Assembly: GCA_018823885.1 (NCBI GenBank)
Contig: JAHJHG010000008.1
Span: 1 to 44,639 of the forward strand
Direction of reading: 5' to 3'
DNA: 44,639 nt
Origin: Patescibacteria group bacterium
GTDB taxonomy: Bacteria; Patescibacteriota; Microgenomatia; UBA8517
This document shows, in pieces, positions 26,899 through 43,401 of this stretch. Positions within the stretch are counted from its first letter, which is position 1; each line of letters opens with the position of its first letter. The notes beneath the pieces are model-generated. The model searched no databases. It saw nothing but the letters and a program-made list of their open reading frames with translations, and had not been told where the DNA came from. Both the position numbers and the translations under genes were made by a program.

Positions 26899-28221
26899 AT
26901 GTTAACCCTTCGATATCTTGTTCGTTTAATTAGAGCGTTTTTGACACGCTTTAAAGGCATTCTTTTTTTAAGCTTTGCTTTGGGAATTTTGTCTTTTGTG
27001 ATACTAAACCTCTTAGGTCCAACCCTGCTAAGCAGAAGTACGAAGAAAATAGGTATTACAGGTAGATTCAGAACAGACAATCTTCCTGATTTTATAATAA
27101 ATAATGTTAGTGATGGGTTAACCAAATTGGATGAAAGCGGTGTTGTCGAGCCATCCCTCGCATCTTCTTGGGAAACACCGGACAAAGGGAAAACATGGTT
27201 CTTTTATTTGCGTGACGATATTTATTGGCAGGATGGAAAAAAAGTAACAAGCGAAACGATTGGATATGATTTTTCTGATGTAGAAATAGAAACACCAGAT
27301 GAAAAGACCGTCATATTTAAACTGTCCAATGCTTTCTCTCCTTTTCCTACGGTGGTCTCCAAACCAACTTTCAAAAAAGGGTTGTTGGGAACAGGGGAGT
27401 GGCGAGTCAAAAATATTACCGTCGCCGGCGGGTATGTTCAAGAATTAGTTTTAACAAACAAGGAAGAAGGGAAAATTATCTATCGGTTTTATCCCACAGA
27501 AGAAAGAGCAAAGCTTGCATATAAATTAGGGCACGTAGATCGTCTTATCAACATCTATGACCCAACCCCATTAGATTCATGGAAATCAGTAGAAATAGTT
27601 AAAGAATCCAATGACAATCAGGTTGTTTCCATCTTTTTCAATGTTCAAGATAAATATTTGTCAGAAAAATCACTAAGGCAAGCCTTGGTTTACGCGATTG
27701 ACAAAGAATCATTTGACGGCGAAAGGGCTTATGGGCCTCTCTCACCAACCTCATGGGGCTATAACCCTCAGGTTAAAACATATGGTTATGACGAATCTCG
27801 AGCAAAGGAACTGATAGAAGAATTAGACGAAGAACAGACAAAAGATCTAGAGATAAAATTACTGACAACTCCAATACTCTTACCAACGGCAGAGAGAATT
27901 GCTAAATATTGGGAAGCAATTGGAGTTAAAACCGTATTACAGGTTTCATCAGGAGTTCCAGCTGACTATCAGGCTCTTTTAGCCGTCTTTGAAATTCCTA
28001 AAGATCCGGACCAATATTCTATATGGCATTCAACTCAATCGTCGACAAACATTTCAAATTATCAAGACCCAAGGATTGACAAGCTGCTTGAAGACGGGCG
28101 TGCCGAACTTACAATTTTGGAGAGAAGTAAAGTATACTTAGATTTTCAACGCTATCTAGTTGAAGATTCCCCAGCTGCTTTCATATATCATCCAACTTCA
28201 TATACAGTTAATAGAAAATGA
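26899..28221 (+). CDS. ABC transporter substrate-binding protein, family 5-like (peptide-binding)
   Basis: N-terminal TM; SGVVEPSLASSWETPDKGKTWFFYLRDDIYWQDGKKVTSE, LRQALVYAIDKE. Confidence 0.88.
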   Translation: MLTLRYLVRLIRAFLTRFKGILFLSFALGILSFVILNLLGPTLLSRSTKKIGITGRFRTDNLPDFIINNVSDGLTKLDESGVVEPSLASSWETPDKGKTWFFYLRDDIYWQDGKKVTSETIGYDFSDVEIETPDEKTVIFKLSNAFSPFPTVVSKPTFKKGLLGTGEWRVKNITVAGGYVQELVLTNKEEGKIIYRFYPTEERAKLAYKLGHVDRLINIYDPTPLDSWKSVEIVKESNDNQVVSIFFNVQDKYLSEKSLRQALVYAIDKESFDGERAYGPLSPTSWGYNPQVKTYGYDESRAKELIEELDEEQTKDLEIKLLTTPILLPTAERIAKYWEAIGVKTVLQVSSGVPADYQALLAVFEIPKDPDQYSIWHSTQSSTNISNYQDPRIDKLLEDGRAELTILERSKVYLDFQRYLVEDSPAAFIYHPTSYTVNRK

Positions 28222-28254: not shown

Positions 28255-28728
28255 TTATTCCTTAAGGGTTGGTTTCTCGGTCTTTTTCTTTGCCGTGCTC
28301 TTAGGCTTGATTTTTTTGTTTTTGGCCACAGCTTTTATCACTACTTTCTTGGCCTTAATAATTTTAGGGGTCGATTTCTTTTTACCACCTGACTCAAGCA
28401 CATTAAGAATTCTATCTAGTTTTGTATTCAGGGAGCTTACTTGTTCCAATAATTGTTTGTTTGTATTATCTCTTTTTCCAAAGTCAGATCCTCCTGAGCC
28501 TCTTCGGGTTGGTCTTCTTGGGCTTCCTCCCTCCTTTTTCTCAAAGCAGCTACTACAATATATTGGCTTGTCTCCACTTGGTCTAAATGGAACCTCGCAG
28601 CTGTTTCCACACTCGTCACATACCGCCTTGTGCATTTGTCTTTGGCCAGAATCACGTCTACGAAAATCTCCTCCTCCGCCTCCATATCCTCCACCACCAG
28701 ACCTATTATTTCGATTGTAGTTACCCAT
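28255..28728 (-). CDS. CxxC-x17-CxxC zinc-ribbon protein with Gly/Arg-rich N-terminus and Lys-rich tail
   Basis: VCDECGNSCEVPFRPSGDKPIYCSSCFEKK; RNNRSGGGGYGGGGGDFRRR; KKSTPKIIKAKKVVIKAVAKNKKIK. Confidence 0.88.
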   Translation of the reverse strand: MGNYNRNNRSGGGGYGGGGGDFRRRDSGQRQMHKAVCDECGNSCEVPFRPSGDKPIYCSSCFEKKEGGSPRRPTRRGSGGSDFGKRDNTNKQLLEQVSSLNTKLDRILNVLESGGKKKSTPKIIKAKKVVIKAVAKNKKIKPKSTAKKKTEKPTLKE

Positions 28729-29198: not shown

Positions 29199-29234
29199 GG
29201 GTGGATAATGACCTTTATTTTTGAACCCTTTTAT
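29199..29234 (+). repeat. Interspersed element subfamily B, copy B1
   Basis: gggtggataatgacctttatttttgaacccttttat; same GGGTG...GAACC architecture as B2/B3, with one extra T. Confidence 0.7.
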
Positions 29235-29236
29235 TG

Positions 29237-29256
29237 TGTCTAACTGTTGTTAGACA
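29237..29256 (-). terminator. Perfect 8-bp stem hairpin overlapping the cold-shock gene stop codon
   Basis: TGTCTAAC-TGTT-GTTAGACA. No strong T-run on the minus side, so terminator function is uncertain. Confidence 0.4.
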
Positions 29257-29447
29257 AGTTTTACATTCTTAGCACTAAGGCCTTTTTCGCCATCTACGAC
29301 ATCGAACGTAACTTCTGCTCCTTCTTGAAGTTCATCAAAAGTTACACCGTCCAAGTCTGAAGAGTGAAAGAAAAGATCCTTTGTTTCTCCCTCACGGGAA
29401 ATAAAACCAAATCCTTTATCTGTTTTTGTTTTAACTACTCCGTTCAT
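29250..29447 (-). CDS. cold-shock domain protein (CspA family)
   Basis: MNGVVKTKTDKGFGFISREGETKDLFFHSSDLDGVTFDELQEGAEVTFDVVDGEKGLSAKNVKLV. Confidence 0.95.
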   Translation of the reverse strand: MNGVVKTKTDKGFGFISREGETKDLFFHSSDLDGVTFDELQEGAEVTFDVVDGEKGLSAKNVKLV

Positions 29448-29539
29448 AGAATTTTTGATAGATTTATATATTAAATCCTCTTGTACCTCCTTTCATTCTT
29501 TATATTATACAGCCTTGGGCGACAATCATCAATTGTGTT

Positions 29540-29577
29540 GGGTAGCTTACCAAACGATGTTAGAACCCATTTCATAA
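29540..29577 (+). repeat. Interspersed element subfamily A core, copy R1
   Basis: gggtagcttaccaaacgatgttagaacccatttcataa. Confidence 0.93.
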
Positions 29578-29631
29578 CTTCCGAAGGTAATGATGTGGTG
29601 TTGTTTAGTAGTTACTTTCTCCAATAAAACT

Positions 29632-29674
29632 GAGGGCCGTTTGAATAAAGATTTCTCTTTACACTCGTACCCTC
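29632..29674 (-). terminator. Hairpin downstream of R1, likely terminator of the minus-strand gene ending at 29688
   Basis: gaggg ccgtttgaa taaaga tttc tcttta cactcgta ccctc; T-rich tract (AGTTTTATT) follows on the minus strand; near-identical to 38512-38554. Confidence 0.7.
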
Positions 29675-29687
29675 TAAGTACTATATG

Positions 29688-30386
29688 TTACTTAACATCT
29701 TCAGTACCAGTAGTTACAACATCCTCGCCAAGATATATTGTGCAGCCCGAAACTAAGTATTCTTGGTTATGCCATACCTCGCAGTTTGGATTATGTGCCA
29801 CTAGACTAACCCGAAGACGTAATCCTTTTTTGAATCCAATTACTTCCCTGTCATCCTGGAAGAAATAATAGATTTTATTTCCCTCTACGGTACAATTGTC
29901 GGTTGTCCCAGGAATACAGTCAGGTAAAGGTCTGTGGTTATGGATAGGCTCAAAGAGCTCGTAGATGTAATCATCTGCGGTAATGCCGAAAGCATATTCT
30001 CCATATTCTGCATTAGTGGAAACTTCCAGCACCAATGTAAAATCGGGACCATGGACGATTTCTCCGTTTTTGGGAGAAATTATTGTTATATTGCCCCAAA
30101 TTTCTTCCTCTTCCTGAAAAGGGGTTTTAGTCTCTTCGATTTCCACAATCACTTGTCCGGTGATTTTATTCCCATCTTCAGAATCTTCAGAATCTTCTAA
30201 CGGATTTGATACGCCTAGATCTTCCGCCATTTTCTCGACGTTAGAATAGGCAACGTCCTCTGCAACTTCAAAGGCGTCGTAACAACCACCAAGAATTAAA
30301 GAACCTGCCAGTAAAACTGCTAATACTACAAGCTTTTTCATTTCGCACCTCCTTTGATTAGCGATTGTGCTAAAGCATATTTTCAA
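29688..30386 (-). CDS. hypothetical lipoprotein
   Basis: Lipobox MKKLVVLAVLLAGSLILGGCYD (start probably the internal ATG preceded by AGGAGGTGCG near 30341); no recognised domain. Confidence 0.75.
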   Translation of the reverse strand: MKICFSTIANQRRCEMKKLVVLAVLLAGSLILGGCYDAFEVAEDVAYSNVEKMAEDLGVSNPLEDSEDSEDGNKITGQVIVEIEETKTPFQEEEEIWGNITIISPKNGEIVHGPDFTLVLEVSTNAEYGEYAFGITADDYIYELFEPIHNHRPLPDCIPGTTDNCTVEGNKIYYFFQDDREVIGFKKGLRLRVSLVAHNPNCEVWHNQEYLVSGCTIYLGEDVVTTGTEDVK

Positions 30387-30402
30387 TTATTGTTTTCAAA
30401 TT

Positions 30403-31227
30403 TTACTGCATATATTTTGCCCACAGTTCTTCAAACATCTCATTGGCTATTAGCCAGATTTGCTCGGCGTGATCAAAACACCAATCGATATATTTAGGAT
30501 CACCTTTGCCGACCATCGGTTGATTATCTGAATCCTCGGGCCAATAGAAATCCAATACTTCTTTAACTGCTTGCTCTCGATCGTTGTACCCTATGAGCAA
30601 TCCATACATGGGCTCAAGTGAATTTCCGAGATCTGCTCGAATTTCCCCACGTTTTCCATTTATATTCCACTCATAATGCCTCCAGCCCTCGTATTCCAGC
30701 TCTGCTGCAATCCTAAAATATAGAGACATATCGTAAACATCTATTTCACTGTCTCCGCCAGGCAAGACGACGCTAAGAGTGTGTTGTTCACTCCATATTT
30801 GCCAAGTATAGTCAGACAAGAAACTTGGGGGAATTCTCCCTTCGCTGTTATCCTGAAAGATTACTCTTCTTATGTTGTTTACAGGCTCTTCAATATTGGT
30901 CAGCATCACTTTCATTTTTGCGAGATCCCTTTGCTTTCTCTCAAGATATTCATCACGACAAACATATCCACCATTTGCGTTGCAGTCACCGCTTGCACAA
31001 TCTGAGCCTGTTAAACATTGTTGTCCGAGCTCGCAAGGATTACAGTATCCACCACAGTCTATATCACTTTCCTCCCCGTCTTTAACGCCGTTATTGCATG
31101 TTTTTGTTTTTTCTTCTATGTCTATTGTGGGAGCAGCCTGTTTTGACTGACACCCTCCTACTAAATGCGTCATAGCAATAAGTAAAAAGCATGCTGTCTT
31201 ATTCATCATGTTCTCCTTTAAATACAC
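30403..31227 (-). CDS. hypothetical Cys-rich lipoprotein
   Basis: Signal/lipobox MMNKTACFLLIAMTHLVGGCQS preceded by AAGGAGAAC; CNNGVKDGEESDIDCGGYCNPCELGQQCLTGSDCASGDC disulfide-rich module. Confidence 0.75.
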   Translation of the reverse strand: MYLKENMMNKTACFLLIAMTHLVGGCQSKQAAPTIDIEEKTKTCNNGVKDGEESDIDCGGYCNPCELGQQCLTGSDCASGDCNANGGYVCRDEYLERKQRDLAKMKVMLTNIEEPVNNIRRVIFQDNSEGRIPPSFLSDYTWQIWSEQHTLSVVLPGGDSEIDVYDMSLYFRIAAELEYEGWRHYEWNINGKRGEIRADLGNSLEPMYGLLIGYNDREQAVKEVLDFYWPEDSDNQPMVGKGDPKYIDWCFDHAEQIWLIANEMFEELWAKYMQ

Positions 31228-31363
31228 TAGTTGAAGCTTGTTAAAGAGCTTGTCTTTAAGGTAGGTTTCTGCGCAGATGCAAAAACCACCATAGATTTAA
31301 TTCTTGTCTAGAATTGGCGCTATTATATATAAACTGAAGTAAAAAATCAAAGCTATGGGGTTT

Positions 31364-31401
31364 GGGTGACTTACCAAACGATGTTAGAACTCATTTCATG
31401 A
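31364..31401 (+). repeat. Interspersed element subfamily A core, copy R2
   Basis: gggtgacttaccaaacgatgttagaactcatttcatga; this copy also forms a perfect hairpin GAACTCAT-TTC-ATGAGTTC. Confidence 0.93.
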
Positions 31402-31627
31402 GTTCAGAAGATAAAGAAAATGTGATGTTGAAGTATTGTTTTTAAAAGATGTGACACTGGGTGAATATCTATTAATGGTGTCTTTAATCTTATCCAAAGG
31501 AAGAATCTTTAGTATTTCCTAGAAGTAGATGAAACGGAAAAACAGCACGAAATAGGAACAAAGTGTATTTGCAATAAATACACACTGATACAATTTCGAG
31601 AGCAACCAAATTACTCTGTTTAGAGAG

Positions 31628-31664
31628 GGTGCCTCTACCAACAAACAGTAGAGACACCCACAAG
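31628..31664 (-). terminator. Hairpin downstream of the minus-strand secreted-protein gene
   Basis: GGGTG-C-CTCTA ... TAGAG-A-CACCC, just 3' of the stop codon at 31682. Confidence 0.5.
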
Positions 31665-31681
31665 TAGCAAACAGTGCTTGG

Positions 31682-32338
31682 TTACGGAGTAAAGTTGTGG
31701 ATGTTTGCACGCCACGCATCGACGTCCAAACGATTTCCCGAACCTCCGATCAAGTGGTCGCAGACCCAGGTGTTGTTGTCATAGACAGGTCCGTAACACG
31801 GTACGTTTGTGGCTACCCACTCAGGGTTGGTCTTCGGGAAGCACAATGCCGCCTGCACCTCTACACCAACGTAACCTACCGGTGACGCCAAAGCGCACCA
31901 GGAGCCGTCATCGGCGGTACCAAGCCAGGCGCTAAACACGACCGTGGCTTCGGGTCCACCAGACGTTGGTACGGATGGCGGGGCACAGTCCAGCCAAATT
32001 TGTAAAGTTTGAGCCTTGCCGCCATTCTGAACAATGTAGCCTTCTTCTGGGGGCGTGTAGGTATAACCGAATGGTGTGTTCGGGTAGTTTACTCCACCAG
32101 CGGTCGATGCCCCAGGCTTCCATACGACAGATTCGCCAACAGGGTATATGTTGCCTTGGACACCAGCATTAACCACTACTAGGCCCGTTGGGCAAGACCA
32201 CCCTCCCCATCCTGTACCACTGTAATTCAGGGGCGATGACACTACGTGGGTTATTCCCCCACCGTTAGCGAACGCCGATCCTAAGGGTAGTGCCAACAAG
32301 AACACTACCAGCAAAGTCAACAAATACTTCTTTTTCAT
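31682..32338 (-). CDS. hypothetical secreted protein
   Basis: Signal peptide MKKKYLLTLLVVFLLALPLGSAFA preceded by AAGGAGAAGGT; G+C clearly higher than neighbours. Confidence 0.8.
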   Translation of the reverse strand: MKKKYLLTLLVVFLLALPLGSAFANGGGITHVVSSPLNYSGTGWGGWSCPTGLVVVNAGVQGNIYPVGESVVWKPGASTAGGVNYPNTPFGYTYTPPEEGYIVQNGGKAQTLQIWLDCAPPSVPTSGGPEATVVFSAWLGTADDGSWCALASPVGYVGVEVQAALCFPKTNPEWVATNVPCYGPVYDNNTWVCDHLIGGSGNRLDVDAWRANIHNFTP

Positions 32339-32592
32339 CTTACCTTCTCCTTATTTATAGGTATCTCGGCTTGATAGAACACTATTTGTTACTTTCATTA
32401 CCTCCTTTTTGAATTATATTGGTTGCGACTTTCCAACAAAGTTGAAAAGTCTGTTTTTCCGTTGTCAAAGTTCTTTAAAAGTGATTTATCCATTATCCTC
32501 CCAAACTGGAAAGCTGTGGATAATCGGATAGATTATAGATAAAAGGGTCTGGTTTGTCAATTTTATGGAAGCTTTAGCGGTGCTTAAATTTA

Positions 32593-32630
32593 GGGTGACT
32601 TACCGAACGATGTTAGAACTTATTTTATAG
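32593..32630 (+). repeat. Interspersed element subfamily A core, copy R3
   Basis: gggtgacttaccgaacgatgttagaacttattttatag. Confidence 0.92.
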
Positions 32631-32702
32631 CCCCAGGTCACGATCAAGAGAAAACATTATTGGGTAATTTAATTCGTGTGAAACCTGTGTATTTTGAATG
32701 TA

Positions 32703-33206
32703 TTACTTAGGAGACTTTTGAAGCCAATTCCAAGCATTCCAAAGCCTATTTGGATACTGACTGACACCGTGGTCGCTTAGAAATATATATGAACACTCAT
32801 TACCATCTTGTATTCCTTCGCAATCAACTTTCCACGCAGCCTCATCTTGATACGGCTCACTCGTTACAACAATTTCTCCCATAACCTCATCATTATGACG
32901 TAATAATAATTTCATTCCCTTCTTTATCTCCTCAGGTTTTAATATCTGTTTGTCACCATGAATTTTTTGCTCGACTGCTTGAAAAAAACCATGCTTTTTC
33001 AGCTTTTCAGCTATTTCGGGGTTTCTCGCAGAATCCAGAAAATCTTCAATGTCGAAAGGATGTATGCCTGGCGACTTGTCGAGTATCTCTTCAAATCCTG
33101 AGTACTCCTTTGATACAAGCTGAATATGTATGTGCCCTGGCACAAGAGGATTATCTGCTTCTAGTGTCATTTCGTGCATTCTAATAATAAATATACAAAT
33201 AGTCAA
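32703..33206 (-). CDS. hypothetical protein
   Basis: Long ORF between two elements; start could be the internal MHEMTLEADN. No recognised domain. Confidence 0.6.
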   Translation of the reverse strand: MTICIFIIRMHEMTLEADNPLVPGHIHIQLVSKEYSGFEEILDKSPGIHPFDIEDFLDSARNPEIAEKLKKHGFFQAVEQKIHGDKQILKPEEIKKGMKLLLRHNDEVMGEIVVTSEPYQDEAAWKVDCEGIQDGNECSYIFLSDHGVSQYPNRLWNAWNWLQKSPK

Positions 33207-33261
33207 TAAAAGTAAACTTTATCAGCAACTTCTACATAAAATACTAGACTAATTGAGGCTG

Positions 33262-33299
33262 GGGTGACTTACCGAACGATGTTAGAACTCATTTGATAA
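33262..33299 (+). repeat. Interspersed element subfamily A core, copy R4
   Basis: gggtgacttaccgaacgatgttagaactcatttgataa. Confidence 0.93.
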
Positions 33300-33462
33300 C
33301 TGTTGAGTACAAAGAAACAATACTGTTGGCAAAATATAACTATTTGCAAGGATCGCAGGTTTTTGAGTTGAATTTGGAGGTTGTTAAGTTTTTTTAGACA
33401 AGCAAACCCTATGCCGATTTGTTTAGAAATCCGCATAACTAGGCTAATTTTTTAAACTGCAA

Positions 33463-33534
33463 CTACTTCTGGCACTCGCAAGTTTTGCAATCACAGTTGC
33501 AAGAACAACACTTTTCGTGTTCTGACACAAACAT
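33463..33534 (-). CDS. putative metallothionein-like Cys-rich micropeptide (not in ORF track)
   Basis: Manual translation MFVSEHEKCCSCNCDCKTCECQK*, 7 Cys in 23 aa; AAGGGGGTG immediately upstream. An alternative GTG start at 33526-33528 gives better spacing. Confidence 0.5.
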   Translation of the reverse strand: MFVSEHEKCCSCNCDCKTCECQK

Positions 33535-33629
33535 CACCCCCTTCCACTTTAAGATTAGCAAACGTGTCAAGTGTTGGCGTTGTTTGTTTACGAAGTTTAA
33601 ATACTATTTTTTTTGGTAAACAAATCTAG

Positions 33630-33672
33630 GGGTGGATAACGACTTTTATTTTGAACCACATTTAGCCTTATT
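33630..33672 (+). repeat. Interspersed element subfamily B, copy B2
   Basis: gggtggataacgacttttattttgaaccacatttagcctta. Confidence 0.75.
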
Positions 33673-33728
33673 CATGAAACTTCAAGGGGCATATCCAGAG
33701 TGTAAAGGACAGTTTAGTTGTATTTAAA

Positions 33729-33752
33729 AGTGACTTACTGAAGATGTAAGGG
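33729..33752 (+). repeat. Degenerate subfamily A remnant
   Basis: agtgacttactga-agatgtaagg resembles GTGACTTACCGAACGATGTTAG with one deletion. Confidence 0.35.
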
Positions 33753-33836
33753 TATTTGCAACCTTATCGCACTTTTGATTAGATATAGATGTCAAAAGAT
33801 TTGAAGATGCAATACTTTTATGATAGCATGCCCTAG

Positions 33837-35807
33837 ATGCTTAAAACAGTTAGTAAACAAATTAGGTTTGTTTTTAACTTCTTTTTTCTTCTTTTTGTTT
33901 TAAGTTTGTTGTCCCCTAATACAATTTATGCACGTGATTACGAGTGGATAGATCAGTTTGGCAACGAATTATACTATCTTCATGATTCTGCGGGGGGCGC
34001 TGTCTTTAACGATGCAGATGAGTTGTATGTTTTGTCTACTACATATGACTTTTTAAACGGGAATAACGTGCGCGATACTTTCTTGAGAAAATATGATCAG
34101 ACAGGTTCTTTGATATGGGAAAATAACTCTATTCCGGGAGGCATGGGAGGTGTTGCCTTGGACAATGAATCAAATATATACGTTACTACATTTAATCTCC
34201 ATGATGGTAATTTTGTGGCTTATTTAGTAAAACTTAATTCTTCAGGGAGCGAGCTTTGGACGAAAGAATTTGGATTTAGTTCAAATGCGTCCATAATTGT
34301 TCACCGAGTCGCAGTTGATAATTATGGAAACAGCTATGTGGTAGGAGTTAGTTATGGAGGTGGATTTATTAGAAAGTTTGACCCTTTGGGCAACGAGCTT
34401 TGGACTAACTATCATGACCGAAGTGAATTTAGAGGAGTAACAGTAAAAGACCAAAATCTTTATGTATCTGGACAAGCAAACAATAGGAGTTTTGTCGGCA
34501 AATATGATTTAGATGGGAATGTTCAATGGGAAAGGGAAAATTATTCTGTGGATGCTCGAGATCTGTCCATTGATGATTTTGGAAATATATATGTGGTTGG
34601 TAAAAGTTTCACGGGCGGATATATTCAAAAATATAACTCGGAAGGTTTTGAACTATGGAACAGAGAAATTAGTAATCCGTGGACGACGGCAACGTGGAGT
34701 AATGGGGTAGAAATAGGTGCAGATGGAGTAGTTTCTGTTGTTGGAGGATCCAGCTCGTCTTTAACAGAACCTTATATAAGTTTTGGGAATTATAGACCTT
34801 ATGTTCAAAGGTATGGGACTGGCGGAGAGCTTCTTTGGACATATTTTTATACTAATTCTGACATAACAAATGGAAATGGTCGTGATGTTGCAGTGGGAAG
34901 TGATGGAAGATTTGCTGTTTCGGGACAAATTACTGGAACCATTGCTGGAGAAACTCAAGATGGAACCGATGCCTTTGTTGCCTATTACTCAACCAATAGC
35001 TCGCCGATAGCCAATGCTGGTCAGGATCTAATAATTGAAGAAGGTTTTGACCTAATTTTAAGCGGGTCTGGTTCTTACGATCAAGATGGATTCATCGACA
35101 TCGTCAATTATGATTGGGATTTTGGAGATGGATTGACAAGTAGCGGAGAAACTATGAGCCATACTTTTACTGATAACGGTATCTATTCTGTCACTCTTAC
35201 TGTTACTGACGCTGAAGGAAAATTTGATTCAGATACTGTCACTTTCACCGTTAACAACGTTTCCCCAATCGGTACTTTAATAATTTCTCCTGCGGCAATT
35301 TCTCCTGGTGAATCATCTACTTTGAGTTTCAGTAATCAATATGATCCCAGTATTACCGACTCTATAGCCGGATTTACTTATTCCTACGACTGCACCAACG
35401 ATGGTGTTTTTGAGTCTGTAGATAGCCAATTTGCAACGTTCACTTGTCATTATCCAAATGTTGGTATATATACGGCCAAGGGGCAGATTAAAGACAAAGA
35501 TAATGGTTACAGTCATTATACCGTTGCCATTAATGTTCGAACACCTTCAGAGGCGATCTATGAAATAATCGATCTCGTTGAGACTTTTAACTTCGAGCAA
35601 GGAATTGATAATGGTTTGGACGGTAAACTTGATGCCGCCCTAAGTACGCTCGATGACCTAAACGAAAACAATGATGTCGCTGCTATTAATTCTCTTATTT
35701 CATTCATCAATACTGTTGAAAATCAAAGAGATAATTTGATAACTAGCGAACAGGCAGATATCTTAATTACCGCAGCACAAGCAATAATTGATGGCCTTTC
35801 TTCCTAA
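33837..35807 (+). CDS. secreted beta-propeller (SBBP-like repeats) + PKD domain + C-terminal FIMAH-like domain protein
   Basis: Signal peptide; repeated GNxYVVGxSxxGGxIxKYxxxGxELW; SPIANAGQDLIIEEG...GSGSYDQDGFIDIVNYDWDFGDG PKD; terminal FNFEQGIDNGLDGKLDAAL...AINSLISFINTVENQRDNLITSEQADILITAAQAIIDGL. Confidence 0.82.
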   Translation: MLKTVSKQIRFVFNFFFLLFVLSLLSPNTIYARDYEWIDQFGNELYYLHDSAGGAVFNDADELYVLSTTYDFLNGNNVRDTFLRKYDQTGSLIWENNSIPGGMGGVALDNESNIYVTTFNLHDGNFVAYLVKLNSSGSELWTKEFGFSSNASIIVHRVAVDNYGNSYVVGVSYGGGFIRKFDPLGNELWTNYHDRSEFRGVTVKDQNLYVSGQANNRSFVGKYDLDGNVQWERENYSVDARDLSIDDFGNIYVVGKSFTGGYIQKYNSEGFELWNREISNPWTTATWSNGVEIGADGVVSVVGGSSSSLTEPYISFGNYRPYVQRYGTGGELLWTYFYTNSDITNGNGRDVAVGSDGRFAVSGQITGTIAGETQDGTDAFVAYYSTNSSPIANAGQDLIIEEGFDLILSGSGSYDQDGFIDIVNYDWDFGDGLTSSGETMSHTFTDNGIYSVTLTVTDAEGKFDSDTVTFTVNNVSPIGTLIISPAAISPGESSTLSFSNQYDPSITDSIAGFTYSYDCTNDGVFESVDSQFATFTCHYPNVGIYTAKGQIKDKDNGYSHYTVAINVRTPSEAIYEIIDLVETFNFEQGIDNGLDGKLDAALSTLDDLNENNDVAAINSLISFINTVENQRDNLITSEQADILITAAQAIIDGLSS

Positions 35808-35898
35808 AACCTCAATAATGTTTTTTGATTAGTCTCTAACAAACTTTACCAGGCACCGTATCTACGAATTGCCCGATATCACGGCCATTTATGCGTCT

Positions 35899-35936
35899 GG
35901 GTGGACTACCGGACGCTGTTAGAACTCATTTCATAA
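35899..35936 (+). repeat. Interspersed element subfamily A core, copy R5
   Basis: gggtggactaccggacgctgttagaactcatttcataa. Confidence 0.92.
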
Positions 35937-36050
35937 ACTCAGGGATAGGGAACAATAAATGGCAGAAAATTCAAGAATATATTCGTTGAAGTGCAGATGG
36001 TAATATAATTAGAAATTAAATAATTCCTATAGTATAATATATCCACTAGT

Positions 36051-37643
36051 ATGCTTGAAAGAAAACAAGACTTTATAAGAAGAGATTTTCTTAAAGCTTC
36101 CTCGGTAATCGCCGGAGGCTTACTGCTTTCTGCCTGTACAGATCCTAAAAAGAATATTCCTGTAACAGCAACTAATATTGCAACTAAATTTCCCACAGAA
36201 ACTACTACTCCCACTCCTACAAGTACGGAAACCCCCACCCCCACTCCAGAGGCAAGGGTGGATGGACTTCATTACTTAGATAATGTTCCATCCCCAAAAG
36301 AACTTGAAAGCGGAGACATTCAGGGGTTTGATAAATATCTTAATGCGTTTGAAACATCTCACGATGAGGTTTTTTCAAGATTGGAGATTCGGGATTGGCT
36401 AGTGGGTAAAGATGGAGAAGAAAAACAGCTAAAGGACGCAAAGGGGAACCCTTTGGTAGTTGTTGTTGATAAGGAAACACAAATTCCCCTTCTTTATGCA
36501 AAACAAAACGAAGAAAAGGTTTGGAAATGGAATAGGGCTACTCTTAGAGATTATGCAGAATTAAATGACATGATTATAGAGTCGATTGTCGGTGTAGACG
36601 GACGAAGAGCGGATCCAATAAACGAAATTGTTAATAAAATAGTTATCGCAGGAGCATTCGATATGACTCAATTTTTCCGAAGTTTTGGACCCTATCATTG
36701 GGATAAAGTCCTTGAAAATTGGGACGAAATAATTACCAAGATTAATAAAGGTGAAAAGCTCTCAGAATTTACGTATAACAAAGTTGGTTTAAGAGAGATG
36801 ACTGAACAGGTAGAGAAATATAATGTAAAAATCAGAGCCCAACATTTGCTTTATGGCATAGATGTTCCAGCTAGTATTAGATACGGAGGTTATACACATG
36901 AGGAGATTGAGAAGCTGGCAGAATTTACTGTTAAATTTCGTGTAAATGAATACAAAGACATGGTTGAAACGTGGGATATTGCAGATGAGGTTGTTAACTC
37001 TCATTATTATGGAGGCGACACTTGGAATTTTTGGATGGTACGATTGGGAGGATATAAAGAAATGACTCTCAAGGTTGCAAGATGGGTTAAGGAAGTCGAT
37101 CCCAATGCAAAGCTGGTAGTAAATGAAGATAATGTTTTGGACAATTCTTTTCCTCAGCAACCTTTCCAAAGAAGAAAATTCATAGAGCTTTTGGAGTATT
37201 TAAAAGAAAATGGGGTTGAGGATGTTGGTGTCGTAGTCGAAAACAACCTTTGGATTTTCGATCCACCGACTTTTGAAGGAAATTACAGTGTCCGAAGCCG
37301 GCTAAAAGAAATATTAGAAGTAGGATATCCCTTTGTGGGTGGTGAGACAACCATTGTCGTTTCTGATGATTACCCTTCCTGGGGAGGTAGGCCCAAATCA
37401 ATATGGGGAGTAGAAGACAGGTACAAAGCACAAGAGGAAATGTATGTTGACCTCTTTCAAAGCTATTTGGATGTTGGTATTAAAGCTTTCGGTTTTGGTG
37501 TCTGGGCAGACGCATATGCATGGCAAAAACTAATTGGATCGGAAGATTCTGACCCGTGTATTTTTGATGACAATGCCGAACCTAAAAAGGTTTACTATCG
37601 CCTTATAGGTCTTTTGAACAGTAATCTTATTAAAAACTCCTAA
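36051..37643 (+). CDS. GH10-like (endo-1,4-beta-xylanase family) lipoprotein with twin-arginine-type signal
   Basis: IRRDFLKASSVIAGGLLLSAC Tat-like plus lipobox; Thr/Pro linker TPTPTSTETPTPTPE; KIRAQHLLYG, VETWDIADEVVNS (acid/base Glu region), VGGETTIVVSDD (possible nucleophile region). Confidence 0.75.
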   Translation: MLERKQDFIRRDFLKASSVIAGGLLLSACTDPKKNIPVTATNIATKFPTETTTPTPTSTETPTPTPEARVDGLHYLDNVPSPKELESGDIQGFDKYLNAFETSHDEVFSRLEIRDWLVGKDGEEKQLKDAKGNPLVVVVDKETQIPLLYAKQNEEKVWKWNRATLRDYAELNDMIIESIVGVDGRRADPINEIVNKIVIAGAFDMTQFFRSFGPYHWDKVLENWDEIITKINKGEKLSEFTYNKVGLREMTEQVEKYNVKIRAQHLLYGIDVPASIRYGGYTHEEIEKLAEFTVKFRVNEYKDMVETWDIADEVVNSHYYGGDTWNFWMVRLGGYKEMTLKVARWVKEVDPNAKLVVNEDNVLDNSFPQQPFQRRKFIELLEYLKENGVEDVGVVVENNLWIFDPPTFEGNYSVRSRLKEILEVGYPFVGGETTIVVSDDYPSWGGRPKSIWGVEDRYKAQEEMYVDLFQSYLDVGIKAFGFGVWADAYAWQKLIGSEDSDPCIFDDNAEPKKVYYRLIGLLNSNLIKNS

Positions 37644-37699
37644 GGTCAGCAATTAGGCCAAAACCCCCCTTCCTTTTGTTTGAAGCATAGATGCGGTGT

Positions 37700-37921
37700 T
37701 TAAATATATTCTTTTGCATTAAACCTAAGTGAAGGATCCGGATTTTCTCCAATAGAGATACGGTTGGTTGCCCACGTAATGGGACCGAATTGATTAAGGC
37801 CAACATAATTTCCGTTCACTGCGTTTGGATCTACCACATATTGAGCTGTGAATCTTTCAATTAAGGCATTAATCCGCTCCGAACTTATTGGCGCTGGTGT
37901 GGGGACGAAAGATGGAGTTGG
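37700..37921 (-). pseudogene. C-terminal gene fragment truncated at the left edge of element R6
   Basis: Minus-strand translation PTPSFVPTPAPISSERINALIERFTAQYVVDPNAVNGNYVGLNQFGPITWATNRISIGENPDPSLRFNAKEYI*; no start codon; the frame reaches a stop inside R6. Confidence 0.65.
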
Positions 37922-37958
37922 GGTAACTTACCAAGCGATGTTAGAACTCACTACATAA
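37921..37958 (+). repeat. Interspersed element subfamily A core, copy R6
   Basis: gggtaacttaccaagcgatgttagaactcactacataa. Confidence 0.9.
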
Positions 37959-38006
37959 CTTCAGATGCTGCAGTAAATGGCATTTTGAAAAAAATGTTAC
38001 AAGCTA

Positions 38007-38012
38007 TATAAT
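38007..38012 (+). promoter_or_regulatory. -10 hexamer TATAAT, 6 nt upstream of ATG 38019 (putative leaderless promoter)
   Basis: TATAAT-TACTTT-ATG. Confidence 0.55.
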
Positions 38013-38018
38013 TACTTT

Positions 38019-38345
38019 ATGGGTCTGGAAGACGGCGAAAGCGTAAAGATAGATAAACCATTTAAAGAGGGTAGTGTTTCTGATTTAATCGAAAATCTAG
38101 AAATATTAGACCATAAAATTCAAGGACGATTTCTTGCTTTAGATTCCAATGCAGGTAGACTAGTTGAAGTTCAATTTAAAACTCCAGATAACAAGAAGCA
38201 ACTTACTGGTTATGTAGAGAAATGGAATTCCGAGGGTGATTTGTGGGTTATGGTACAAAAAGAACCAGATAAATCAGAATTTAAACACTATCGACTTTCG
38301 CCAAACCAAAATATCAGATCAAGATTAATAAATCTTAACAAATAG
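38019..38345 (+). CDS. hypothetical protein
   Basis: 108 aa; promoter-like TATAAT directly upstream; sits between R6 and R7. Confidence 0.6.
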   Translation: MGLEDGESVKIDKPFKEGSVSDLIENLEILDHKIQGRFLALDSNAGRLVEVQFKTPDNKKQLTGYVEKWNSEGDLWVMVQKEPDKSEFKHYRLSPNQNIRSRLINLNK

Positions 38346-38420
38346 ATTATCGAGGCCCACTTCTAAGTTCGAACCACTATTATTCCTAAAGTAGGGGGCG
38401 TTCCTGAGGTTGTACGATTG

Positions 38421-38458
38421 GGGTGACTTACCGAATGACGTTAGAACTCATTTTATAA
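38421..38458 (+). repeat. Interspersed element subfamily A core, copy R7
   Basis: gggtgacttaccgaatgacgttagaactcattttataa. Confidence 0.93.
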
Positions 38459-38511
38459 AGTCTGAAGCCAACGCATATGTGGTCTTAAGCAATTACTTTC
38501 TGCAAAAAACA

Positions 38512-38554
38512 GAGGGCCGTTTGAATAGAGATTTCTCTCTAAGCTCGTACCCTC
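38512..38554 (-). terminator. Hairpin downstream of R7, likely terminator of the minus-strand gene ending at 38571
   Basis: gaggg ccgtttgaa tagaga tttc tctcta agctcgta ccctc; TGTTTTTTG follows on the minus strand; homologous to 29632-29674. Confidence 0.75.
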
Positions 38555-38570
38555 TTTTTGCACCTTGTTA

Positions 38571-39074
38571 TTAGATTTGTCCTAGGTTTTTCAGAATTTG
38601 GAGTATAAGTATCAAAAATAAGACAATACTGATCACGCTAAGAATTTTTCTCCTTTTCTTTATTTCTGGAGTGATTGGATCGGGTTTGGGCCGCAATTCT
38701 TTTTTGTACTCTGTTGAAAGAGAGTTCCATTGTTTCCAGTTCATCGGCTCCCCCCTGAACCCTATCCTAGGTTTCCACATCATCATAAAAATACAACCCA
38801 CGAATTGAAGGGCAAGGCCTATGATCAAACCAATGAGTGGATTACGTCCTTTACCATCGGCAACGGCCCAACCAATTACTGCCCAGACGATGAAGTAAAT
38901 TCCATAGCAGCTCATGCCCGCAATTTGCCGCGCCAGACACAAACCCGTGAGCCCCGCTATGGGGTCGTTGTCGCTGCATCCGGCCTGAGCACTTGCACTA
39001 AAGATCCACAACCAGGCAATTCCGTAGATTACCACAGGTACATAGTAACGATAGGATATCCACAGTTTTTTCAT
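38571..39074 (-). CDS. hypothetical membrane protein
   Basis: About four hydrophobic segments; start preceded by AAGGAGGGCG. Confidence 0.75.
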   Translation of the reverse strand: MKKLWISYRYYVPVVIYGIAWLWIFSASAQAGCSDNDPIAGLTGLCLARQIAGMSCYGIYFIVWAVIGWAVADGKGRNPLIGLIIGLALQFVGCIFMMMWKPRIGFRGEPMNWKQWNSLSTEYKKELRPKPDPITPEIKKRRKILSVISIVLFLILILQILKNLGQI

Positions 39075-39218
39075 TTTCGCCCTCCTTGTGGCGAATGATT
39101 AGACAGGATTGTCAAGGTACGCAAAAATACCCGAAGGATTCGGGCAAGTAGCTATATTATACTCTATAACATCAATTTTGAAGAGAATTGATGATATCTT
39201 TTTATAGAAGAGTATTTG

Positions 39219-39256
39219 GGGTGACTTACCGAACGATGTTAGAACTCATTTCATAA
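39219..39256 (+). repeat. Interspersed element subfamily A core, copy R8
   Basis: gggtgacttaccgaacgatgttagaactcatttcataa. Confidence 0.93.
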
Positions 39257-39398
39257 GGTCGGGAAATAAAGAAAAGACATTATTGTTCAATATATTGCCT
39301 TTAAAAAATAGCTGTTGGAGTTAAAGCTTACATGGAATACCTTCCGTCAACAGCTGAATTGTATATTCAAACTGGTTGATGATATATTATTATTAAGC

Positions 39399-40835
39399 AT
39401 GGAAAAAGAAACAACACAAGATAGTAAAACCACAATACCTGAAGTTCAATCTGAACCTAAAGAAGATCTTCAACCCGTCACTCAAGATCCTGAAACTCAA
39501 CAAATATCTCCTGAGGTGGTAATGGACTCCGAATCAGTCATTAATCAGCCTGTCAAAAATAAAAACAAATTGTTGATGATAATTCTTGTATTACTTCTAA
39601 TTTTAATCGGGGCTGGTGGGTTTTTTGGCTATAGATATTACCAATCAATGCAACAACCCGCTGAAAATGGGGTAACTGTTCCGGTTCAAACGGAAGAGGT
39701 CGATCTTTCAAAATCACACAACACTTTTGGTTTTAACTTGTTTAAGAAATTAGCCTCAATAACCACAGCTGAAGATGAAAATGTTTTTATTTCTCCTACA
39801 AGTATTTCTGTCGCGCTTTCGATGATATACAACGCTGCTGATGGTGAAACGAAAGAAGAGCTTTCCAGTTTGCTGGGATTTCAAAACCTTAGTACAGATA
39901 ATATAAACCAAAATACAAAAGACCTTTTGGACAGTTTCAATTCAGAATCTGATATTACCTTACATTTACTAAATTCATTGTGGGGAAATAAAGTTTTTGT
40001 TTTCAATCAGACCTTTATCGACACACTAGAAACTTATTACGAGGCAGAGGTTTCATCAGTGGATTTTGCTGATCCGAATACTGTTGACACAATCAACGGT
40101 TGGGTTAACTCTGCCACTTCAGGAATAATTGAATCTGTTTGTTCAGATCTTCCAAAAGACGGAACCAATGTTTTAATTAACGCTATTTATTTCAATGCTA
40201 GGTGGTCAAGTATGTTTTTATCTTTTCTATCTTCTGACTTACCATTCAACAATAATGATGGAGAAGTGGTTATACATCCTTTTATGAAACAGACAAGATA
40301 TAGAGGAAACTATGCCGAAACTGACAATTACCAGGCAATTCGGTTGCCGTATGGGATAAATGAAGAAGTGGCAATGATTATTGTCTTGCCAAAATTTGAC
40401 GTTGATGAGTTTATAGAAAATATAGACCTAGACGCTTGGAACTCAATTCTAGAGCAGTTTGAATTTAAAATAGGTACCATTATTCTCCCAAAGTTTAAGG
40501 TGGAAAGTAATTACCAAATGGACGAAATCTTACCATTGCTTGGTATGATAAAAAGTTTTACTCCGGAGGCTGATTATCTCAACATGTTAGACGATTCGTC
40601 CAACTTACCATATGTCTCTATTGAGGAAATAATTCACAAAGCTATTATTGAAGTAGACGAGGAAGGAACAGAAGCGGCAGCTGTTACTGCTATCCTTCCA
40701 ATAGCAATGGGAGGGAAACCGCCAGAGTTGCCTGAATTTTATATGGAAGTAAACAGTCCGTTTATCTTTGCTATTCAAGATGAACAAAGTGGAGAAATAT
40801 TATTTATTGGAACGATAAAAAACTTGTCTAAATAA
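39399..40835 (+). CDS. membrane-anchored serpin (serine protease inhibitor family I4)
   Basis: N-terminal TM (KLLMIILVLLLILIGAGGFFGYRYY); NVFISPTSISVALSMIYNAADGETKEEL; hinge EVDEEGTEAAAVTA; C-terminal FYMEVNSPFIFAIQDEQSGEILFIGTI. Start placed at ATG 39399. Confidence 0.92.
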   Translation: MEKETTQDSKTTIPEVQSEPKEDLQPVTQDPETQQISPEVVMDSESVINQPVKNKNKLLMIILVLLLILIGAGGFFGYRYYQSMQQPAENGVTVPVQTEEVDLSKSHNTFGFNLFKKLASITTAEDENVFISPTSISVALSMIYNAADGETKEELSSLLGFQNLSTDNINQNTKDLLDSFNSESDITLHLLNSLWGNKVFVFNQTFIDTLETYYEAEVSSVDFADPNTVDTINGWVNSATSGIIESVCSDLPKDGTNVLINAIYFNARWSSMFLSFLSSDLPFNNNDGEVVIHPFMKQTRYRGNYAETDNYQAIRLPYGINEEVAMIIVLPKFDVDEFIENIDLDAWNSILEQFEFKIGTIILPKFKVESNYQMDEILPLLGMIKSFTPEADYLNMLDDSSNLPYVSIEEIIHKAIIEVDEEGTEAAAVTAILPIAMGGKPPELPEFYMEVNSPFIFAIQDEQSGEILFIGTIKNLSK

Positions 40836-40855
40836 AAAGAGTTCAAAGACTTAAA

Positions 40856-41428
40856 ATGGAAAAAATGAAATCTACCCGTTTTGCTAAACATGTTATTAAG
40901 ATTTTATCTAAAGAACATAGAGGCATGACTCTTTATTTCTTCTGGGGCGGCTTCACTATCTTGCAAATTCTTTTTGTGACCCTTATAAGTACTTTTTTTG
41001 TTTGGGCGGTATTTTATTTTGTAGAAAATAATCAAGGATTTTATATCGCCGCAAGCTTGGGAGTATTGCTTGCATCTATAACCATATCACCTCTTCTATT
41101 GGCTGTGACGACTGAAAAAACAGAACTTGAACGCCTACTTGTAAGAGGGAAAGAGCTTTGGAAGGAGAAGACACTTGCTATGCTCAATAACAAAAACCCA
41201 ATCTTTAATAAATTTATGAGCGCGCCGTATTGGAAGGTTGCACTGCTTTCAGTGTTAGTTTATTACCTTTTTCCTTCAGACAATAATATAACAGAATGGT
41301 TTGTGGTGACATTGTCTTTTTTCATGGCCACGACGGCGATAATTCTTTTACTGGCTAGGCTTGTTCTTTTTTTGAAATTTAGAGGTTCATTGAAGAAAAC
41401 TCTCGGCGATCCTGTTCTAGAAGGGTAA
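40856..41428 (+). CDS. hypothetical membrane protein
   Basis: 190 aa with four TM segments. Confidence 0.7.
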   Translation: MEKMKSTRFAKHVIKILSKEHRGMTLYFFWGGFTILQILFVTLISTFFVWAVFYFVENNQGFYIAASLGVLLASITISPLLLAVTTEKTELERLLVRGKELWKEKTLAMLNNKNPIFNKFMSAPYWKVALLSVLVYYLFPSDNNITEWFVVTLSFFMATTAIILLLARLVLFLKFRGSLKKTLGDPVLEG

Positions 41429-41608
41429 AAAGAAATGGCCTTTTTTAATGTTTTGAATCAGCATTGGGCCATATTGACAGTACCCATCCCAAAGCGCACC
41501 ATCCTCGGTCTCGCCACCACATGGGATTTTAATAAACCATAAGAATATGCCTAATATAAGAAATATAAAAAGTATTATACGAACTATAATAAAATCTTTT
41601 CGCCTCAC
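41417..41608 (-). CDS. hypothetical small membrane protein
   Basis: 63 aa, one TM segment, Cys-containing tail; weak support. Confidence 0.4.
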   Translation of the reverse strand: MRRKDFIIVRIILFIFLILGIFLWFIKIPCGGETEDGALWDGYCQYGPMLIQNIKKGHFFLPF

Positions 41609-41666
41609 AATTTAATATGTCATCATACATTAAGGAAGTCAATGATATTGAAGCTAATAATACTAT

Positions 41667-41710
41667 GGGTGACTGATGCATCTTATTTTGAACCGCTTTT
41701 AGCCCATTTC
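41667..41710 (+). repeat. Interspersed element subfamily B, copy B3
   Basis: gggtgactgatgcatcttattttgaaccgcttttagcccatttc; the first eight bases match subfamily A (GGGTGACT). Confidence 0.65.
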
Positions 41711-42696: not shown

Positions 42697-42789
42697 AAAA
42701 CTTTAAATCCATTTTATATTATACAACTTTTGTGGATAGCTGTTTCTGAGTTATAGCCTGCTTCTAACGGCAAGGGCTAGTAAACTATG

Positions 42790-43401
42790 TCAGGAGCTTC
42801 CTAAGAATACCCTCGGATTTACGGGAATCCCGAATACATTAATCTGGAAGTGTAAATGATTTCCTGTTGCCCAACCTGTACGCCCTTCTGTTCCGATTAT
42901 ATCTCCAGGTTTAACATCCTGTCCCTTTTCGACATTTATTGTATCCAAATGGGCATAAATTGAGGTGAGGTTATCTTCGTGGTCAACGACTACATGCTTG
43001 CCGAATCCCCAGAAAATCCGTCCTGCATAAACTACCTTGCCCTGCATAAACGGAGTAATCGGATCTCCCTTTTTGCCATCGGGGTTTGCTATATCAATAC
43101 CTGTATGAAATGGTTGGAAAATGCTTGATTCTCCGAATTCTAAAGTAATTACTCCTTTAACTGGCCAGACAAAGGTCCCTGTTATTTCCTTATAAACCGA
43201 GCCGTCTTTGGGATTTTTAATTAAAACCGATCCGGTGACGCTGTCATATTCAACCAACTTGTCCGAAACGGCATCAATTCCGACCCTGGTTATGACGATT
43301 ACGGCAATTATCGGCAAGATTATGGCCAGCAAGAAGGCCGTTGCTACATAAATTATTTCTTTTCTGAAAGAAAAAAGCGTAAATAGAAGCTGGGGGCTCA
43401 T
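42790..43401 (-). CDS. M23 family metallopeptidase, membrane-anchored
   Basis: N-terminal TM; FHTGIDIANPDGKKGDPITPFMQGKVVYAG...VVDHEDNLTSIYAHLD...GRTGWATGNHLHFQI. Confidence 0.92.
   Translation of the reverse strand: MSPQLLFTLFSFRKEIIYVATAFLLAIILPIIAVIVITRVGIDAVSDKLVEYDSVTGSVLIKNPKDGSVYKEITGTFVWPVKGVITLEFGESSIFQPFHTGIDIANPDGKKGDPITPFMQGKVVYAGRIFWGFGKHVVVDHEDNLTSIYAHLDTINVEKGQDVKPGDIIGTEGRTGWATGNHLHFQINVFGIPVNPRVFLGSS

Follow-up and report, generated by a model that had tools for sequence, protein, structure and literature searches.

Patescibacteria have very small genomes, and their acquisition of genes is poorly understood. Here we describe a region in the genome of a member of this group (GenBank assembly GCA_018823885.1, called G000; 756,347 bp were assembled by fetching stretches and joining them) in which short sites, all facing one way, stand between unrelated genes. 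The region lies in the window, the whole stretch of 44,639 nucleotides of contig JAHJHG010000008.1 (C8) that was analysed, and further sites are present on contigs C1, C2 and C5. Three types of site were distinguished; the 38-bp type-1 site looks like a fragment of a coding gene. No description of arrays of this kind was found in the literature searched.

Results

Eight type-1 sites are located in the window at 29540..29577 (R1), 31364..31401 (R2), 32593..32630 (R3), 33262..33299 (R4), 35899..35936 (R5), 37921..37958 (R6), 38421..38458 (R7) and 39219..39256 (R8, the consensus copy). All are on the plus strand and free of indels, and an unguided repeat search recovered them as family D1. At most three mismatches from the consensus were found in five matches in the window compared with none in 100 shuffles. 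R1 continues into a coding-like tail, GSLPNDVRTHFITSEGNDVVLFSSYFLQ-stop, which reaches 29627, R2 into the tail GDLPNDVRTHFMSSEDKENVMLKYCF-stop, and in R3 an in-frame stop (TAG) immediately precedes the coding-like tail on its 5′ side. The window holds no copy beyond these eight, and a genome-wide search for the 38-mer added only C5:7426 and C5:9474. When the assembled genome was scanned with a profile, the 10 sites scored 49–61 bits and nothing else exceeded the cut of 11 bits. The description in the first-pass annotation of eight ungapped copies in one orientation, absent from the 1–29 kb block and flanked by genes on both strands, thus holds, and the sites are clustered rather than scattered over the genome. 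A decayed type-1 site (AAGTGACTTACTGAAGATGTAAGG, 33720-33760) directly follows the type-2 site at 33630. A terminator-like segment of 50 bp (GAGGGCCG...CCCTCT) occupies the same place after R1 (29626-29675) and R7 (38506-38555) only, the two being 90% identical.

Type 2 (GGGTGGATAACGACTTTTATTTTGAACC) has three copies, all inside the window array and on the plus strand: 29199..29226, which begins GGGTGGATAATGACC, 33630..33657 and 41667..41694, the first and last of which bound the region reported by the annotation. Type 3 (TTGARGCTRAATTGCAGGGGCTAGTAAACTTTGTCAGGAACTWCTTT; a site of about 36–46 bp) has a single strong window copy (42773..42800, plus strand) and a decayed one abutting R4 upstream (33205..33241, plus strand; profile score only 8.4 bits). 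A second array, on C1 (33347-37053), consists of eight type-3 copies, all on the minus strand, 0.37–0.96 kb apart and near-identical across 28–36 bp. Each array thus carries its strong sites on one strand: eight type-1, three type-2 and one type-3 site on the plus strand of C8, and eight sites on the minus strand of C1. Blind self-comparison of the genome for short repeats present at least five times returned type 1 and type 3 only. Smaller type-3 sets are present at C1:141991/142554 and C2:1717/2317.

For a comparison with relatives, 52 genomes of the family, 384 of the class and 384 of the phylum were searched by profile. Turnover of gene content was compared at the level of genera. Type-3 sites lie between an M50-L28-fmt-def-priA block and rnhB in six genera (G000, G003, G015, G030, G034 and G045), in one orientation relative to fmt (in G034 relative to the PGA_cap gene), and the genes in between differ among the six. 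The eight-site C1 array and a three-site array in G015 have the same orientation and the same flanks, umuC and a DUF192-like gene on one side and a methyltransferase and a LysM-like gene on the other; the sole gene of at least 60 amino acids between the G015 sites has no homologue in G000. Neighbours of the window array (the genes at 26899-28221 or 28255-28728, or obg) also adjoin type-1 sites in G010, G058, G006 and G043, the last being linked via obg, and the orientation there matches that of the window array. One of these neighbours, a cysteine-rich protein gene (28255..28728, minus strand), forms the left flank of the array and adjoins type-1 sites in G058 and G006. In genus g104, a YtxH/gmk neighbourhood is common to three genomes, which differ in the gene runs before their type-1 site. 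Turnover between copies had been put forward in the annotation as a test of cassette capture, and conserved gene order as its refutation; between genera, the loci of the sites and usually their orientation are conserved, while the genes that separate them change. The same-genus pair G009/G041 is not syntenic and was uninformative. LAGLIDADG-like and helix-turn-helix-transposase-like proteins are encoded close to the fmt–rnhB platform (G015:C10:4054-4848; C1:140884-141543).

The genes between the window sites encode a cold-shock protein (29250..29447, minus strand), two predicted secreted proteins (29688..31227, minus), a predicted exported protein (31682..32338, minus), a 167-aa protein (32703..33206, minus) whose 3′ end overlaps the R3 tail, a beta-propeller/PKD exported protein (33837..35807, plus), a glycoside hydrolase family 10 (GH10) protein (36051..37643, plus), a 108-aa protein (38019..38345, plus), a 167-aa membrane protein (38571..39074, minus) and a serpin (39315..40835, plus). 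The two secreted proteins, the exported protein at 31682, the 167-aa protein at 32703 and the 108-aa protein have no Pfam match. The C1 array carries mostly one small gene per interval. Among the products are NUDIX, glyoxalase and two MazG-type proteins, types that by analogy resemble integron cargo, as well as a DUF5680-like protein. In places a site fills the entire intergenic gap, and antisense genes stop at or inside the site. Cargo on C5 comprises an Eco57I-type restriction-modification gene and a Schlafen AlbA_2 gene. The composition of the cargo is foreign-looking: array genes range in GC content from 0.30 to 0.54, eight of 20 falling in the outer tails of about 7%, and the gene at 31682..32338 (0.54 in a genome of 0.38) is in the highest percentile of all genes. 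GC content at third codon positions showed no average difference. Across different families, DUF1905-like, GIY-YIG and phosphoglycerate-mutase-like genes recur as neighbours of type-1 sites.

Read in frame, the 38-mer translates as G-[DS]-L-P-N-D-V-R-T-[HY]-[FY]-I, followed by 15–30 codons to a stop. In relatives the coding-conserved tail extends about 50 bp past the 38-mer, with the consensus G-S-L-P-N-D-V-R-T-Y-Y-S-T-L-x-Q-E-L-x-F-F-R-T-x-F-A-S-L-stop. Profile searches located such tails in 24 of the 384 class genomes, usually one per genome. Coding constraint was assessed as the synonymous share of single-base codon differences, compared with 200 column shuffles. For 20 type-1 copies from genomes mostly with one or two sites, this share was 0.469, against 0.228 ± 0.041 (maximum 0.320) in the shuffles; none of the 20 had a stop in the coding frame, and in the other five frames 16–20 of the 20 did. 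The signal was weak for the arrays of G000 and G015 (0.345 vs 0.219 ± 0.050; five of 16 copies with stops). The constraint is strong in single-copy genomes but relaxed in arrays. Conservation of type-1 sites starts abruptly at the G before GGT. Upstream, an in-frame stop commonly occurs within a few codons, and there is no consistent start; about half of the copies lack a start codon. No significant match to an intact parent gene, termed gene X here, was obtained in open frames longer than 85 amino acids in the family, class and phylum genomes, and no gene X head was present upstream of the first sites. Phage, plasmid and viral collections contained no host gene for the tail, and neither Pfam, NCBIfam nor PDB gave a match to it. 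Since the frame is conserved and neither a start nor a long open frame was found, the type-1 site, to judge from its sequence, resembles the 3′ terminus of a gene X that none of the examined chromosomes contains, with the DNA sequence fixed in arrays. A motif match to the C-terminus of FtsA (C5:23.4 kb) looks like chance. Type-3 sites read L-V-N-x-V-R-N-F-F in the aligned frame; their coding test was not significant (0.301 vs 0.245 ± 0.066), and the similarity to type 1 is therefore tentative.

No recombinase family tracks the arrays, contrary to the co-occurrence envisaged by the annotation: G015 and G006 bear arrays with only a pair of Xer enzymes. In G000 there are two tyrosine recombinases, both Xer-like and encoded at C1:92622 and C6:83780, for which the best TIGR02249 scores are 123 and 48 bits (cut-off 265), and two large serine recombinases (C1:23987-25564 and C6:127812-129305) with CcrB and XisF as best NCBIfam relatives. 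The 3′ ends of the two serine recombinase genes run into tRNA-rich DNA, and the C-termini of their products resemble translated tRNA genes; on this sequence basis, both enzymes probably integrate at tRNA genes. The assembled genome contains no convincing dif-like sequence, the best candidate agreeing at 16 of 22 positions. Intein-like in-frame insertions of about 1.3 kb are present at profile position 135 of Xer-type genes (G015:C11, G046:C2, G022:C7, G002:C79; open frames of 738–747 amino acids).

Integrons are gene-collecting devices of bacteria, and a CALIN (cluster of attC sites lacking integron-integrases) is an attC array without an integrase. Core boxes and folding were examined at 16 sites, eight each of types 1 and 3. 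A GTTRRRY (R′)/RYYYAAC (R″) pair 40–140 nt apart was absent from all 16, with no shared offset, and z-scores of single-strand folding scattered around 0 on both strands. In 21 copies there was no consensus structure, and the window array contains neither an Rfam match nor a tRNA. Identity with integrons or CALINs was rejected by the core-box and folding tests, unless attC were to be redefined.

Discussion

The cassette-capture reading of the first-pass annotation stands as far as the layout is concerned, that is, one orientation, unrelated and heterogeneous cargo, and turnover at syntenic loci; a co-occurring recombinase is not supported. Added here are the coding-like nature of the 38-mer, the second array on C1 and the presence of sites at the same loci in related genera. 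We favour the view that the window carries a gene-cassette array whose members are exchanged by directional recombination at sites other than attC, through Xer or through an enzyme that acts in trans or has been lost, and we hold the chances of this being right as about even. Cassettes of one to a few genes would be joined by short recombination sites facing one way, and new cassettes would enter and old ones leave, moving as units by insertion and excision at fixed chromosomal platforms, much as in a sedentary chromosomal integron without an integrase in cis. The site would be short and of an unfolded duplex type, derived from the 3′ portion of a coding gene. The enzyme might be either of the two Xer tyrosine recombinases, which are near-universal, or else an integrase that has been lost or is provided in trans. 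Beyond this, we suggest tentatively, as a possibility with somewhat more against it than for it, that Patescibacteria have independently evolved a second, native cassette platform, in which their own Xer, or an undiscovered enzyme, acts on a coding-derived site at the same spots across genera.

Several observations weigh against cassette exchange. Type-1 sites within the array differ by up to about 8 bp in 38, so that a strict recombinase site is not obvious. G015, which has both array types, and G006 contain no serine recombinase. The Xer pair occurs in nearly every genome of the family, many of them without sites; being near-universal, it does not lend itself to a co-occurrence test. At one shared platform (G006:C14 vs G000:C2), the weak type-3 sites are oppositely oriented, and none of the genomes compared, which belong to different genera, showed an excised circle, an empty site or movement at the strain level. 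Nor does the cassette model alone explain the coding constraint on type-1 sites. The headless site is itself the puzzle: purifying selection acts on a frame that, as found, has no start.

Recombination without a dedicated enzyme is rather unlikely, and of the alternatives it survives best. Short direct repeats would provide homology for RecA-type recombination after natural DNA uptake, whereby orientation is kept automatically and genes are swapped or deleted. The lack of a recombinase that co-occurs with the arrays fits this explanation, same-orientation direct repeats are what homologous exchange leaves, and the C1 sites are near-identical over 28–36 bp. However, type-1 copies, 38 bp long and with several mismatches, are ill suited to homologous recombination, and the origin of the site, its single copies in distant genera and its sharp left boundary at GGGT would be left unexplained.

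The headless coding tail is best accounted for by an accretion model in which integrative elements insert at the 3′ terminus of gene X, as the staphylococcal cassette chromosome (SCC) does at rlmH and e14 at icd. With each element a substitute 3′ end for the gene would arrive, and a headless coding tail would be left at every junction, in agreement with coding selection on type-1 sites that lack a start, with the sharp site boundary and with the SCC-like serine recombinases of G000. This explanation has to do without its target gene, since neither an intact gene X nor a head upstream of the first sites emerged from the genomes searched; moreover, G015 has no serine recombinase and type-3 sites give no significant coding signal. 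We therefore consider accretion distinctly unlikely.

Two further explanations leave the sites without a part in gene exchange. A transposon or an element similar to repetitive extragenic palindromes, inserting beside genes in biased orientation with the cargo as bystander, would agree with several types of short, dispersed, single-orientation elements and with solitary copies in many genomes, but it is made very doubtful by clustering at shared platforms with cargo turnover, by strict confinement to arrays and by the lack of a conserved hairpin or structure. If the site were instead a tiny gene or a regulatory element, RNA or DNA, that recurs next to genes, this could account for the strong coding conservation of type-1 copies outside arrays; the missing start codons in about half of the copies, in-frame stops just upstream, the lack of an Rfam match in the window array and of a consensus structure, and a site position that does not depend on which strand the adjacent gene occupies render this highly improbable. 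A true integron or CALIN with unusual attC sites, which integron-type cargo, stop codons that coincide with the site and the compactness of the one-gene cassettes might suggest, has next to no probability given that no site has the box pair or folds, that both TIGR02249 scores are far below the cut-off and that sites of about 36–46 bp are shorter than attC.

If the favoured explanation is correct, Patescibacteria would be able to capture genes in an integron-like manner through a cassette platform that is conserved across genera, and cassette arrays would be possible without IntI and attC. It offers defined objects: the site, two Xer enzymes as candidates, and the platforms (fmt–rnhB; umuC–methyltransferase; those next to obg and to the cysteine-rich protein gene).

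Among known systems, the annotation had recognised no match, and for integrons this was borne out when tested: with no attC core boxes, no folding and no IntI, the array is not an integron. The pdif (XerC/XerD) modules of Acinetobacter plasmids likewise consist of genes bounded by short sites, and here too only Xer recombinases are available; in contrast, the sites of pdif modules are dif-like and of alternating orientation, while the present sites all face one way in a genome in which no convincing dif-like sequence was found. SCC and e14, the former with Ccr serine recombinases, share headless 3′-coding fragments at junctions and the possibility of tandem stacking, but here no target gene was found, cassettes measure 0.4–2.6 kb and array-bearing G015 has no serine recombinase. 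Sedentary chromosomal integrons and CALINs are alike in having small unrelated genes between one-orientation sites at conserved chromosomal platforms, NUDIX, glyoxalase and MazG-type cargo, and open reading frames that stop in or at the site. They are unlike in that the sites described here have neither attC core boxes nor a hairpin, that three site types are mixed in one array with genes on both strands, and that type 1 is coding-selected. The region thus combines cassette-array behaviour with a place outside the integrons, and it would represent a new kind of system if Xer or a new enzyme acts on its sites.

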